Positions 752 through 6,047 of a stretch of DNA of 44,647 bases are shown one piece after another; position 1 is the stretch's first letter, and every line of letters starts with the position of its first letter. The DNA lies in the NCBI GenBank assembly GCA_019119675.1, contig DWWO01000130.1, positions 1 through 44,647 of the forward strand, read 5' to 3'. Position numbers and translations under genes: made by a program. The notes under the pieces are model-generated. The model worked only from the letters and a program-made list of their open reading frames with translations. It made no database searches and was not told the DNA's origin. Origin of the DNA: Candidatus Mediterraneibacter faecipullorum. Its GTDB lineage: Bacteria > Bacillota > Clostridia > Lachnospirales > Lachnospiraceae.

Positions 752-2059
752 ATGAAAAAACATACGCATTTATCTTTAGATGAACGGATTACAATTGCAC
801 AGCTTTTAAAAGACTGTTCCCCTTTTAAAGCAATCGCCCGCGAACTTGGACGTGATCCATCTACTATTTCAAAAGAAGTCCGGGGACATCGGGTTCCTAA
901 AAAATCCGGTGCCCTTGGGAAAGCCTTCAACAATTGCGCCCATCGGTTCGGCTGCGACTGCAGACGTCTCTGTACCGGATGCAAAAATAACCGCTATTGC
1001 TGGACCTGCGGTAAATGTATTTCTATCTGCCCTGACTACAAGGAGCAAAAATGCTCCCGCATTTCCTCTCCTCCCTACGTCTGCAACGGCTGCCAGAACC
1101 TGAATTCCTGCACGCTGGAAAAATGGTTTTACAGGGCTCAGTCTGCACAGGAAGAATACAAGAGCCTCCTTTCAGAGGCAAGGGAAGGGATCTCTCTTTC
1201 CGAAGATGAAATCCGGCATCTGGATTCTATCATCTCCCCTCTGATCCTGAAAGGGCAGTCCCTCAACCATATCTTCCAGAACCACGGGGATTCCATTATG
1301 GTCAGTGAAAGCACTCTCTACCGGCTGATCAATGACAATCTTTTTACCGCAAGAAATCTTGACCTGCCACGCAGGGTTCGTTTTTCCAAACGCAAGTGCA
1401 GAAAAAACAGGAAGATCGACAAGCAGTGTCGGACTGGCAGAACCTATCTGGATTATCAGGTTTATATACAGGAGCATCCTGATCTCCCTGTTACGCAGAT
1501 TGATTCGGTAGAGGGCGTCAAAGGCGGGAAAGTCCTTCTCACCATCCATTTCGTGCAGGCAGAATTCATGGCCGCATTCCTCAGGGATACCAATGATTCC
1601 CAGTCTGTTATCGATATCTTTAACAGGCTTTACCTTGAACTGCGCTGTGATATTTTTATCTCTCTCATGCCAGTCCTTCTTGCAGACAACGGTTCCGAAT
1701 TTTCAAATCCATCCCGGATTGAATTCGATACACAGGGGAATCAGCGGACACATCTGTTTTACTGTGATCCTGCTTCGCCTGGTCAGAAAGGATCTGCAGA
1801 ACGGAATCATGAACTGATCCGCCTTGTAATTCCCAAAGGGAAACCGCTGGATTCCTATACTCAGGATGACATCAGCCTGATGATGAGCCACATCAATTCT
1901 TACTGCCGCCCAAGCCTTGGCAATAAGACTCCTTATGATATGATGTGCTTTTTATATGGGAAAGGAATTCCTGAACGGTTTGGGATTCATAAGATTGCGC
2001 CGGATGATGTCACACTGCGGCCGTCTCTTCTTGCGAAAGGAGATGACAAAGATGAATGA
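752..2059 (+). CDS. IS30-family transposase (DDE) with Cys-rich region
   Basis: A 435-residue protein that would cut and join the ends of the surrounding element. An N-terminal helix-turn-helix (residues about 5-45: HLSLDERITIAQLL, KAIARELGRDPSTISKEV) is typical of IS30. Then comes an unusual block at about residues 60-125 with 13 cysteines, many in C-x2-C spacing, suggesting one or more zinc-binding knuckles. The C-terminal half is the DDE domain: QIDSVEG (first Asp), LLADNGSEF (second Asp) and KGSAERNH (Glu). All catalytic acids are present and the frame is intact, so it may be active. ATG at 752 is preceded by GCAGGAGG with good spacing. No frameshift is seen. Confidence 0.93.
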   Translation: MKKHTHLSLDERITIAQLLKDCSPFKAIARELGRDPSTISKEVRGHRVPKKSGALGKAFNNCAHRFGCDCRRLCTGCKNNRYCWTCGKCISICPDYKEQKCSRISSPPYVCNGCQNLNSCTLEKWFYRAQSAQEEYKSLLSEAREGISLSEDEIRHLDSIISPLILKGQSLNHIFQNHGDSIMVSESTLYRLINDNLFTARNLDLPRRVRFSKRKCRKNRKIDKQCRTGRTYLDYQVYIQEHPDLPVTQIDSVEGVKGGKVLLTIHFVQAEFMAAFLRDTNDSQSVIDIFNRLYLELRCDIFISLMPVLLADNGSEFSNPSRIEFDTQGNQRTHLFYCDPASPGQKGSAERNHELIRLVIPKGKPLDSYTQDDISLMMSHINSYCRPSLGNKTPYDMMCFLYGKGIPERFGIHKIAPDDVTLRPSLLAKGDDKDE

Positions 2060-3295: not shown

Positions 3296-4492
3296 CTACT
3301 TCGTCAGATAAATCACACGCAATTCATCGACGCTCATCACATAGTATCTGTTTACTCCAAAAGCCCGGGACATGTCCAGCACATCCACATCAAGATCTCC
3401 GTCAAATTTGATGATTCCCGTCACCGTAACGATACAGCACCTGCTGCCGTCATACATAATGATCTCGTCACCGTCTATTTTGGCATTATCATACATTCCG
3501 GGGATTCCCCTGCTGATCATCTGTTCACCGTTCCGGTTGTACAGCCTCAGCTCATATCCTGATTTTTCACGATTAAGAAGAATCAGCCCGATATACTCGT
3601 CTGAATGAAACACACTCTGTATTTCCTGATCTAAAGTGATCGTTTTCACTGCCTCAGGCGCATCAGTCCCCCGGCAGATCGTAAAAGAGTTATCACCTAC
3701 GGCAACAGAGCGGCCGCCTCCCATAAAAAATATCTCTCCCATGATAGTATTATCATATTCTTCCGAAAAGACAATATTATCTGCATTTTCCTGTCCTGCC
3801 TCTCCGAAATTATAATATACCACTCTCGATTTTATGGCAGTCCCGTCAAAGAAGAGATAGGACACCGCCAGCGTAGTTCCGTCATCGGACATGCCCATTG
3901 CGGTCGGATATCCTGTCGTTCCTGTAGATATCTGCATTTCTGCCAATATATTTCCTGTTGCATCATAGGTCATGATCGTCGGAGAAGTCTCATTTCTGAG
4001 GAGCACACTCACTATCCCCTGGTTCGAGATTACAATTTTCTCAATCGGAAGAGTTGTCTCGATTTCACCTTTCAGGCCTTCCTCCGAGAATACCATGATA
4101 CTGTTTCCGCCATTATCTGCCACGGCAAAAGATTCATCTCTCACTACGATGAGCGGATTCTGTATCTGGGTCGGCTGTATCCATCTCTCCTCATTTTTTT
4201 TGTCAAGAAATGCGACGCCGTCACGATTATATCTCACAATGCCGTCAGCAAACTGAGCGTAATTACTTGTATCCGAAATATTTCCAGAATATTGTGCTGA
4301 TATCCGTGCAGTACCATACACCTGATTTTTCATAAGAAGATATGTACCACATACCGCAAGAATAACCAATATAAGGATCACAAGTATCCTCCGCACTTTT
4401 GCATGCCGGAATCTGCGTACTTTCTTCATTATCTCGCTTAGATCATCCGGGGGCGTCAATATTCTGAGGTATGGCTTTTTCTTTTGCGTCAT
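3296..4492 (-). CDS. DUF5711 family membrane-anchored beta-propeller-like protein
   Basis: A 398-residue protein. I place the start at the ATG at 4490-4492, six bases after AAGGGGAG; an upstream in-frame ATG at 4528 lacks a ribosome site. A basic cytoplasmic N terminus (residues 1-35) precedes one membrane helix (about 36-54, ILVILILVILAVCGTYLLM). The rest is a predicted extracytoplasmic beta-rich domain with repeated strand patterns (NPLIVVRDESFAVADNGG, GYPTAMGMSDDGTTLAVSY, FGVNRYYVMSVDELRVIYL), consistent with a WD/PQQ-like propeller. This fits DUF5711 proteins of Clostridia. It lies between the LysM-type protein and CvpA, 8 bp from the latter, suggesting a joint envelope function. No catalytic motif is visible. 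Confidence 0.75.
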   Translation of the reverse strand: MTQKKKPYLRILTPPDDLSEIMKKVRRFRHAKVRRILVILILVILAVCGTYLLMKNQVYGTARISAQYSGNISDTSNYAQFADGIVRYNRDGVAFLDKKNEERWIQPTQIQNPLIVVRDESFAVADNGGNSIMVFSEEGLKGEIETTLPIEKIVISNQGIVSVLLRNETSPTIMTYDATGNILAEMQISTGTTGYPTAMGMSDDGTTLAVSYLFFDGTAIKSRVVYYNFGEAGQENADNIVFSEEYDNTIMGEIFFMGGGRSVAVGDNSFTICRGTDAPEAVKTITLDQEIQSVFHSDEYIGLILLNREKSGYELRLYNRNGEQMISRGIPGMYDNAKIDGDEIIMYDGSRCCIVTVTGIIKFDGDLDVDVLDMSRAFGVNRYYVMSVDELRVIYLTK

Positions 4493-4551
4493 TCTAACTC
4501 CCCTTATTCTGATTTTGCCGGCAGGCATTTACTTTTCAAGCCGTGGCTGCC

Positions 4552-4622
4552 GGTATAATCCCTGCGCAGCAGGGCGAAGCGGTCGTGCCGCTTCGGATCG
4601 CGCTTTGCGCGATCATTATACC
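4552..4622. repeat. 71-bp perfect cloverleaf (four-way junction) palindromic element
   Basis: An 8-bp outer stem, GGTATAAT (4552-4559) with ATTATACC (4615-4622), encloses three adjoining perfect hairpins: CCCTGC-gca-GCAGGG (4560-4574), CGAAGCGG-tcgtg-CCGCTTCG (4575-4595) and GATCGCG-ctttg-CGCGATC (4596-4614). Every base belongs to a stem or a 3-5 nt loop, with no unpaired base at the junction. A further small hairpin (ACCAT/ATGGT, 4620-4635) overlaps its edge. It lies between the LysM-protein and DUF5711 genes, in the transcribed direction. It does not resemble a tRNA in sequence; a REP-like mobile repeat or RNA processing element is possible. Confidence 0.8.
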
Positions 4623-4628
4623 ATGATT

Positions 4629-5867
4629 TTATGGTAATAGCAATTTTTGCCCCACATAAATCAGGTTGCCGTCCGCGATACCGTTCATCCTGCATATAGC
4701 ATCCACATGATCAACATCTCCATACATTTTCCTGCTGATTATAGCAAGGGTATCTCCTTCTTCCACGATATATACGCCGTCGCTTCCATTTTGGGACGCA
4801 GACAGGGAAGCCTGTCCGCTCTCTTCTGCCGCAGAGGCATCACTTGCTTCTGCGGACTCGTTTCCGCCGGAGCTGTCTGTACCAGATTCATCCGTCTGCC
4901 CGTCCTCACTCTCAACATTCTGGCCATCTGAAGCCTGTGCATCTTCACTCTGAGTGTTCTGACCATCCGATGCCTGTCCGTCCTCGCCCGGTGCACCCTG
5001 ATCATCAGAAACCAGCCCGTCTCCGGTCTGTTCTTCCGACGTCACGGCTGTCACGGATCCGCTCGTTTCCCTTGTCTCCACCGTATCCGATGTATCTGCC
5101 AGAGCCTCCAGTGTACTCTGTACGGATTTCATCCGGTCAAAGCTGTTGACCATAGATACGCCCATGATGATCAATATCAGCACAAGACTCGCGCTCGCCA
5201 CATACATCAGGCCTCCTGCTTTCCTGCGTTTTTGGCGCTCCCCCCTCTTTCTAACCAGATCACGAAAGTCCTGTGCAGCTCTGTCTTCCACAGTTTCCGG
5301 GGAGACTGCCCCATTTTTTTTTCGACTGGCGATCATATAGTTCTGCATACACGGATTTTTTTCATAATACGTGTAATGCCCTCCGATCGCCATCAGGTCA
5401 TTCATTTTATGCACATAATATGTCTCATCCTTTTCTATCGGATCCTTCATGATAAATACAGTGTTTTTCTTCGGAAATGATTTCTTGTGGAACTTTATGG
5501 TCGAACTGTCCGGCGTTAGCGGTACTCCCGGATGTGCCACGAACCATCCCAGCATCTCCCCGTCCTCAAAGAACTGCTTACAATCCTCATACGCATGTTT
5601 CCACGTGTCTTCGTCGATCACATATTCATTCCCCGACATCTTCAGCTCATGCATCCGGATCGCTCCGTATATGTATACATAATCCTCGTCATCTCCCGAC
5701 TGGATATCTCCTACAAGAAATGCTCCGACAGGAGCTTTTGCCTTCTCACTTTTTTCACTGAGCTGTGCAAAGAATGTATCTACATAGTCTTCCACATATA
5801 TCTTCGGGCTGTCGCTCACATTCCCAATCTGCCTCACATTTTTCGGTATCTGTCTTTCCATGATCAT
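4629..5867 (-). CDS. Membrane protein with JAMM-like cytoplasmic domain and extracellular LysM domain
   Basis: A 412-residue protein in four parts. Residues about 20-180 resemble a JAB1/MPN (JAMM) fold: APVGAFLVGDIQ, YVYIYGAI, then GWFVAHPGVPLTPDSS. In active JAMM enzymes the last motif is H-x-H-x(10)-D; here the first His is Val110 and the distal Asp is Thr123, so metal binding is probably lost. A basic stretch (RKRGERQKRRK) precedes one membrane helix (about 219-240), giving a cytoplasmic N terminus. Residues 260-360 form an acidic Ser/Asp/Gln-rich linker with a repeated SED-x-QASDGQN unit. The C terminus (about 365-411, YIVEEGDTLAIISRKMYG to VGQKLLLP) is a LysM peptidoglycan-binding domain. 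First gene of a three-gene operon; start follows AGGAAGGTGGAG. It may sense or anchor to the wall. Confidence 0.75.
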   Translation of the reverse strand: MIMERQIPKNVRQIGNVSDSPKIYVEDYVDTFFAQLSEKSEKAKAPVGAFLVGDIQSGDDEDYVYIYGAIRMHELKMSGNEYVIDEDTWKHAYEDCKQFFEDGEMLGWFVAHPGVPLTPDSSTIKFHKKSFPKKNTVFIMKDPIEKDETYYVHKMNDLMAIGGHYTYYEKNPCMQNYMIASRKKNGAVSPETVEDRAAQDFRDLVRKRGERQKRRKAGGLMYVASASLVLILIIMGVSMVNSFDRMKSVQSTLEALADTSDTVETRETSGSVTAVTSEEQTGDGLVSDDQGAPGEDGQASDGQNTQSEDAQASDGQNVESEDGQTDESGTDSSGGNESAEASDASAAEESGQASLSASQNGSDGVYIVEEGDTLAIISRKMYGDVDHVDAICRMNGIADGNLIYVGQKLLLP

Positions 5868-5970
5868 ACTCCACCTTCCTGATAATGATTATTTTCCCGG
5901 CGTCGTAAAGAGAATAGCACAGGGAAATAGCTGAATTTATCAGTTGATGTCAGATAAGTTCGACAAATTT

Positions 5971-6033
5971 AATCGGGGACAGGGCAAAACGCAATCGGGG
6001 ACGTAGTAAAACTGAGTTTTACTACGTCCCCGA
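5971..6033. repeat. 39-bp near-continuous palindrome with a partial direct copy (REP-like)
   Basis: Bases 5995-6033 form a 19-bp perfect inverted repeat around a single central G, with the arm core CGGGGACGTAGTAAAACT. A degenerate copy of the left arm (AATCGGGGAC at 5971-5980, then GCAAAAC) lies in direct orientation 22 bp upstream. It stands 14 bp beyond the stop of the transketolase C-subunit gene and beyond the promoter side of the LysM gene. There is no T-run after the stem on the minus strand, so it is less a classical terminator than a REP-type palindrome; it may still block or stabilise the transketolase transcript end. Confidence 0.7.
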
Positions 6034-6047
6034 CGACAATTTAGAAA

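Follow-up and report, generated by a model that had tools for sequence, protein, structure and literature searches.

Short palindromic repeats lying between bacterial genes, such as BOX, RUP, ERIC and Correia, have TA-rich targets, affect neighbouring promoters and are in some cases modular; Correia and RUP elements duplicate TA. For REP sequences and the IS200/IS605 family, a guide next to a hairpin has been described that pairs with the cut site; a REP is further defined by the tetranucleotide GT[AG]G on the 5' side of its hairpin foot (PMC6006769). A search of the literature, mostly outside subscription papers, gave nothing on the kind of repeat that we describe below in these bacteria.

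Here, we followed up a perfectly paired cloverleaf in a contig of Candidatus Mediterraneibacter faecipullorum (44,647 nucleotides, hereafter the window). We think it rather probable that the cloverleaf belongs to a non-autonomous palindromic mobile element of about 131 bp, whose insertion in -10 boxes would be directed by its own guide and carried out by an HUH-like transposase acting in trans; both the transposase and the transposition are what we infer. Like REP/REPIN-RAYT systems, the element is intergenic, present in several copies, built around an irregular hairpin with a guide-like stretch near its foot, and found in head-to-tail arrays, and REP-type Y1 genes occur in 38 of the 58 genomes of the genus. 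Unlike them, it carries three additional hairpins, its guide of 8 nt matches -10 boxes, and it shows no consistent linkage with RAYT genes. By eye, neither GTAG nor GTGG precedes the hairpin foot on its 5' side in any of 49 copies (hairpin B has a GTGG at its 3' foot instead), and none of 41 RAYT loci has the repeats flanking the RAYT gene within about 1 kb that are a feature of REPs. Hence, we do not class the element as a REP.

The resemblance to IS200/IS605 elements (IS608, ISDra2) and their non-autonomous derivatives lies in an internal guide pairing with the target flank, in subterminal irregular hairpins, and in a target kept on one side with a similar sequence at the other element end and no plain duplication. 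In our copies the guide is complementary, by sequence, to the target, and the target is kept at one end with a similar, element-borne sequence at the other (genomes G054, G036 and G050). Differences are that the element lacks tnpA and tnpB, that its guide pairing reaches 8 canonical bp, that its target is a promoter element, and that the order of guide and hairpin fits only partly, in either orientation. With BOX, RUP, ERIC and Correia the element shares small size, a palindromic and partly modular build, a place between genes, TA-rich targets and, presumably, effects on neighbouring promoters; it departs from these repeats in the four-way junction formed together with the insertion junction and in hexamers unlike a plain duplication. 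The copies showed no terminal inverted repeats by eye (49 copies, whose ends have no more in common than a brief TGCGCA-like word and whose hairpin 3 varies). This and the misfit of a plain 6-bp duplication are the reasons why we do not class the element as a DDE MITE. The first-pass annotation had guessed at a mobile palindromic repeat, REP-like or MITE-like, and was right in kind, since the element is multicopy and has orthologous empty and filled sites.

The cloverleaf and the full unit

Refolding positions 4552-4622 with RNA and with DNA parameters gave a four-way junction in which every junction base is paired (Table 1), as had been reported from the letters alone. The minimum free energy is -43.3 kcal/mol with RNA parameters (z -5.66) and -29.7 kcal/mol with DNA parameters (z -7.06), and in both cases none of 200 dinucleotide shuffles is as stable, which bears out the original remark that chance formation is unlikely. 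The stem lengths first given stand for the closing stem (8 bp) and for the hairpins of 6 and, with DNA parameters, 8 bp; the third hairpin has 8 bp rather than 7. The stem of hairpin 2 has 8 bp with DNA parameters and 9 with RNA parameters. ARAGORN finds no tRNA in the window, so that a tRNA, already excluded at first pass, is ruled out. Membership in an Rfam family was also rejected: there is no match at gathering score, and the two best matches of a related tandem copy used as query lie below threshold (E 0.18 and 0.41).

Table 1. Features of the element copy in the window and of its neighbourhood (positions of the window)
Feature	Position	Strand	Basis
Closing stem, 8 bp, GGTATAAT / ATTATACC	4552-4559 / 4615-4622		Folding
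Hairpin 1, 6 bp, CCCTGC/GCAGGG	4560..4574	+	Folding; double changes in 6/6 pairs (alignment A6)
Hairpin 2, most variable of the hairpins	4575..4595	+	Folding; double changes in 7/8 pairs
Hairpin 3, 8 bp, GATCGCGC/GCGCGATC	4596..4614	+	Folding; double changes in 7/8 pairs
Internal guide GGTATAAT (gene strand: ATTATACC), complement of GnTATAAT, the extended -10 motif	4552..4559	+	
TATAAT on gene strand, putative element-borne terminal hexamer	4615..4620	-	Read here from empty sites of other copies
CC, flanking target bases pairing with the guide	4621..4622		addB empty and filled sites; covariation counts
Hairpin B remnant (GGCATTTACTTTTCAAGCCGTGGCTGCC)	4524..4551	+	Alignment A2; full copy in genome G002, locus L062
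-35-like TTGCTA	4638..4643	-	Within the end part of the LysM gene; 17 nt upstream of TATAAT 4615-4620
LysM-domain gene, upstream of the element	4629..5867	-	PF01476
DUF5711 gene, downstream of the element	3296..4528	-	PF18975

The bounds first drawn fit the cloverleaf; the element itself extends beyond them, positions 4524-4551 being half of a second conserved hairpin. Neither this hairpin nor the -10 target appeared in the first description, nor did the fact that a strand of the closing stem spans the insertion junction. An alignment of six copies showed a full unit of about 131 bp, made of the cloverleaf and a long irregular hairpin B with strands AGAAAAGGAAGCG...CATTTACTTTTCAA. On the gene strand the order is TATAAT, hairpin 3, hairpin 2, hairpin 1, guide ATTATAYC, hairpin B, and the TATAMT of the target. 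The window copy lacks the other half of hairpin B and the far TATAAT, and genome G002 (locus L062) has the full unit at the site of the window copy.

The fold is conserved among copies. Standard pairs fill 97.8% of 4275 pairing cells in 86 distinct aligned copies, and double changes are seen among them at 34 of 50 pairs, against a mean of 18.3 for shuffles and 9-13 for slid structures. Naturally, the RNA-model alignments (A3-A6) were fitted to the structure and somewhat favour covariation, even if the margin is large. The first-pass annotation had proposed a covariance-model search and held that a single-copy sequence with non-compensatory changes would argue against a conserved structure; the search returned a multicopy element with compensatory changes.

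Units also occur in series. Two stand in tandem at locus C31, and head-to-tail arrays of three to four units are found at one promoter in L163 (1056-1515) and L164 (700-1092), from genomes G044 and G031. In the LysM-DUF5711 gap of L089 (genome G012) the same TGGTATAAT and ATTATACC guide accompany different hairpins, a combination suggesting that guide and hairpin may be exchangeable modules.

Empty and filled promoters

Copies of the element are dispersed and share a conserved structure, and at orthologous sites some genomes have the element and others lack it. Comparison of empty and filled sites at four promoters (those of DUF5711, addB, murA and an S1 gene) places the insertion at a -10 box TGnTATAMT. 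The first-pass annotation had asked for a comparison of orthologous LysM-DUF5711 gaps: among 50 gaps read by us (of 55 matches, with genome G027 present twice and labels set by hand), 35 are empty and 9 filled, four hold other inserts and two hold remnants. Following TGn, all but one of the 35 empty gaps have either TATAAT (15) or TATACT (19) at a common position. At addB, where 30 loci were read of 58 matches, the empty site of G057 reads ATGATATAATCACTGG and the filled site of its sister G004 reads ATGATATAAT-element-TATAATCACTGG. The empty G020 is sister to the filled G054 and to G045, which has an internally deleted copy (sister relations from one midpoint-rooted FastTree tree of three proteins). 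At murA (30 loci read of 54 matches), G000 and G006 hold the full element and G037 its cloverleaf part; by coordinates, G016 also carries a copy.

The -10 box of the LysM-DUF5711 gap receives other sequences too. In L085 and L119 (genomes G026 and G038) it holds a different insert of about 100 bp (GTGAACACTTGGCGAGG...). The insert of L085 is flanked by repeated AAATCATGGTATACT and is a second, unrelated element with the same target.

The surroundings of the copies are those of promoters. A native -35-like hexamer is kept upstream: both over 68 flanks and in merged clusters, -35 matches peak at spacers of 16-18 upstream of the element's TATAAT. With 81 copies grouped into 25 over-merged clusters, each represented once, the best match at these spacers has a mean score of 3.44, against 2.49 (sd 0.18) for shuffles, none of 1000 of which reaches it. 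Spacers of 28-31 give raised scores as well, which we count against this result. Copies lie in one orientation upstream of genes: in 38 of 48 a co-oriented start stands at most 150 nt downstream, and in 7 of 48 a divergent start stands at most 150 nt upstream, these 48 copies being partly non-independent and starts being called with a simple ribosome-site rule. In the window, CC at 4621..4622 corresponds to the Gn of TGnTATAAT on the gene strand, and the motif of the empty sites, taken together with the TTGCTA that precedes it by 17 nt, resembles an internal promoter of the extended -10 type for DUF5711. For this copy, the TATAAT at 4615..4620 would then also be the -10 box of the inherited promoter. 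The longest DUF5711 reading frame has its first ATG (4526-4528, - strand) within the hairpin B remnant; either the element may have lent an N-terminal extension to the protein, or this start has been called wrongly. A likelier one is the ATG that follows GGGGAGTT, at 4492-4490.

Which of the two hexamers belongs to the element can be asked where the target is TATACT. The promoter of the S1-domain gene reads TATACT in 24 of 25 unfilled loci (30 read of 58 matches); here the full copies of G054 and G036 have TATAAT upstream and TATACT downstream, and the truncated copies of G045 and G004 have TATAAT. G050 repeats the arrangement of these two full copies at DUF5711, where TATACT stands in its relatives G010, G041 and G014. 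Two different hexamers around copies at TATACT targets make plain 6-bp target duplication unlikely, and we rejected it. Most simply, the upstream hexamer would be the element's and the downstream one the old target, a rule based on three full copies at two loci. The degenerate S1 copy of G027 goes against it, with TATACT upstream and TATACC downstream. Other filled DUF5711 sites are uninformative, their downstream hexamer being TATAAT (G002 and G057), TATAAA (G007), TATGGA (G044) or CATACC (G030). Alternatively, mutations improving the pairing with the guide could have produced the upstream TATAAT once the element was in place. On the + strand of the window, the event reads as insertion 3' of (A/G)TATA, with ATTATA as the element end.

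Guide pairing and rival explanations

The guide ATTATAYC is complementary to the element's TATAAT and to the flanking Gn. Hence, the closing stem of the cloverleaf is the guide paired with the insertion junction. This complementarity is complete (8/8) in 71 of 88 copies; in the other 17 the side that differs is the guide in 14, the flank in 2 and both in 1. The flank base n and its guide base were compared in 80 copies, i.e. those with the hairpin B signature once exact repeats were dropped (99 rows to 82) and L263 and L275, where the guide could not be located, were left out. They are G/C in 72, A/T in 5 (from three loci), C/G in 1 and G.T in 2. At addB, the subclade with A at n has T in the guide and copies with G at n have C. 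At DUF5711, n is G in 9/9 filled sites vs 3/35 empty ones, so that the matching of n and guide may partly arise after insertion. Judging from these sequences, the match may reflect either choice of the target by pairing or adjustment after insertion.

We propose the following scenario for a guide-directed mobile element. The guide would pair with single-stranded DNA of the -10 box, choosing and aligning the insertion point. A trans-acting transposase with the single-strand chemistry of IS200/IS605-REP-like (HUH) enzymes would cut the + strand of the window 3' of (A/G)TATA and join it there. In this view, the perfect cloverleaf would be the guide-junction duplex with three hairpins between its strands. 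The gene would keep its promoter and gain a structured leader and a second extended -10; in the window, the promoter concerned would be the internal one of DUF5711, and the copy would since have lost its far end. A bolder version, which we hold only tentatively, is a self-guided family homing to promoters: the 8-nt guide would pair with a -10 box possibly single-stranded in the open promoter, and the promoter would be rebuilt upstream with the original -10 left downstream. Such an element could enter essential promoters without killing them. If true, this would be a mobile repeat that targets the core promoter itself by base-pairing and leaves the promoter of the host alive. Gut Lachnospiraceae would then provide a natural test of insertion directed by a guide, and genes such as DUF5711, addB and murA could acquire new 5' leaders and tandem promoters from the repeat. 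It would also call for caution, as perfect multi-branch DNA folds may be insertion junctions and not RNA structures.

The same observations might be read otherwise. A classical MITE, moved by a DDE transposase and duplicating a short TATA target, would account for the TATA found in the sequence to either side of most full copies and for the TATAAT on both sides at addB, which resembles a 6-bp duplication. We regard it as unlikely, since G054, G036 and G050 have an upstream TATAAT though their relatives read TATACT, and since terminal inverted repeats were not seen in the copies read; as far as the sequences go, a duplication of 2-4 bp (TA or TATA) could have occurred. More improbable still, in our opinion, is the conserved structured RNA or cis-regulatory leader, under selection at promoters and only secondarily mobile, that the first-pass annotation had suggested. 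Strong covariation, the recurrence across many species of a similar element at these promoters and a position just upstream of genes all speak for it. Yet, close relatives lack the element exactly, and Rfam gave no match at gathering score. Besides, departures from standard pairing outside the main stem of hairpin B, in cells that are non-independent, are G.T in 65 cases vs A.C in 39 on the window + strand. This is the reverse of what selection on the mRNA strand should give, so that the pairing is no evidence for an RNA function of the transcript. The upstream TATAAT, which forms the -10 half of the closing stem, would moreover precede the expected transcription start and lie outside an RNA started from that promoter, given the anatomy of promoters.

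Perfect stems might finally be maintained by template switching that corrects imperfect palindromes when the DNA is replicated, with passive spread of the repeat by recombination and no dedicated enzyme to recognise it. Such a process fits the presence of both G.T and A.C departures, the hairpin 2 variants in which several pairs differ together between copies, and the want of a consistent transposase partner. It leaves unexplained the exact insertion at -10 boxes, in fixed orientation and at unrelated loci, as well as the likeness of the internal strands of hairpin B across genera, and we give it very little credit. A guide-directed mobile element thus remains the reading that we favour.

Distribution and candidate enzyme

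BLAST finds nine matches in the own genome (2.76 Mb in 153 contigs), whose genus is probably Mediterraneibacter. Of the 58 genomes of the genus, 41 are matched by the covariance model R1, which also gives a weak match in 1 of 41 genomes from outside. There are up to 16 matches per genome; these include some opposite-strand echoes and overlaps, and copy numbers are approximate. In a wider sample of one genome per genus of the family, the model matches 5 of 199 besides the own genome. When named genomes were scanned with an exact pattern, 11 stretches came up, from Candidatus and uncultured Mediterraneibacter, uncultured Lachnoclostridium and uncultured Ruminococcus. Plasmid and phage records hold no match to one full unit, and IMG/VR no exact match to one pattern. 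Among the copies fetched, identity between loci of one genome reaches at most 91% (in G031 and G044 the maximum lies within an array). Movement within the genus may thus not be recent, which we count against the mobile-element reading.

One genome of another genus, G291, carries a diverged relative (L301, L304, L306-L322) with 18 BLAST matches, four of them 97-100% identical. This relative has TCATTATA-type ends and, from the likeness of its copies, looks recently mobile.

REP-type Y1 genes are the obvious place to look for a partner. Of the 38 genus genomes with such a gene 31 carry the element, as do 10 of the 20 that lack one (p 0.017, phylogeny being left out of account); nine genus genomes in the second Y1 search were picked as lacking the gene in the first. 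Sorted by eye, the genes of the genus form two groups, one beside a gene that we take, from its product's N-terminus, for a glycyl-tRNA synthetase-like gene, and one between transketolase and LysM genes. Against NF047646, three of these genes reach 70-75 bits, short of the cut-off of 80. Among the five carriers outside the genus only G240 exceeds this cut-off, G221 having a weak match (E 0.12), and in G291, where copies are up to 99-100% alike, no gene of NF047646 type was found. Physical linkage is poor as well. The RAYT1-type loci that we searched have no element copy in their flanks (about 1.5 kb), and a text search of Y1 loci L122-L151 for words of the element gave isolated words in four loci and no element ends. 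Among 41 loci with RAYT genes, copies occur only in L153, L155, L227 and L232; these linked copies belong to two genomes (G044 and G007) and lie about 1.3-1.4 kb away, beyond the LysM gene. With loose co-occurrence and no linkage found, we rejected RAYT as the obvious mobiliser.

Two features of the neighbourhood may be mentioned. In relatives (L153, L155, L157, L161) a REP-type Y1 gene stands between the transketolase and LysM genes, where the window has a 180-bp gap (5868-6047). Near its start, at 752-2059 (+), the window holds an open reading frame of 435 aa with an HTH_38 domain, perhaps an IS30-type transposase.
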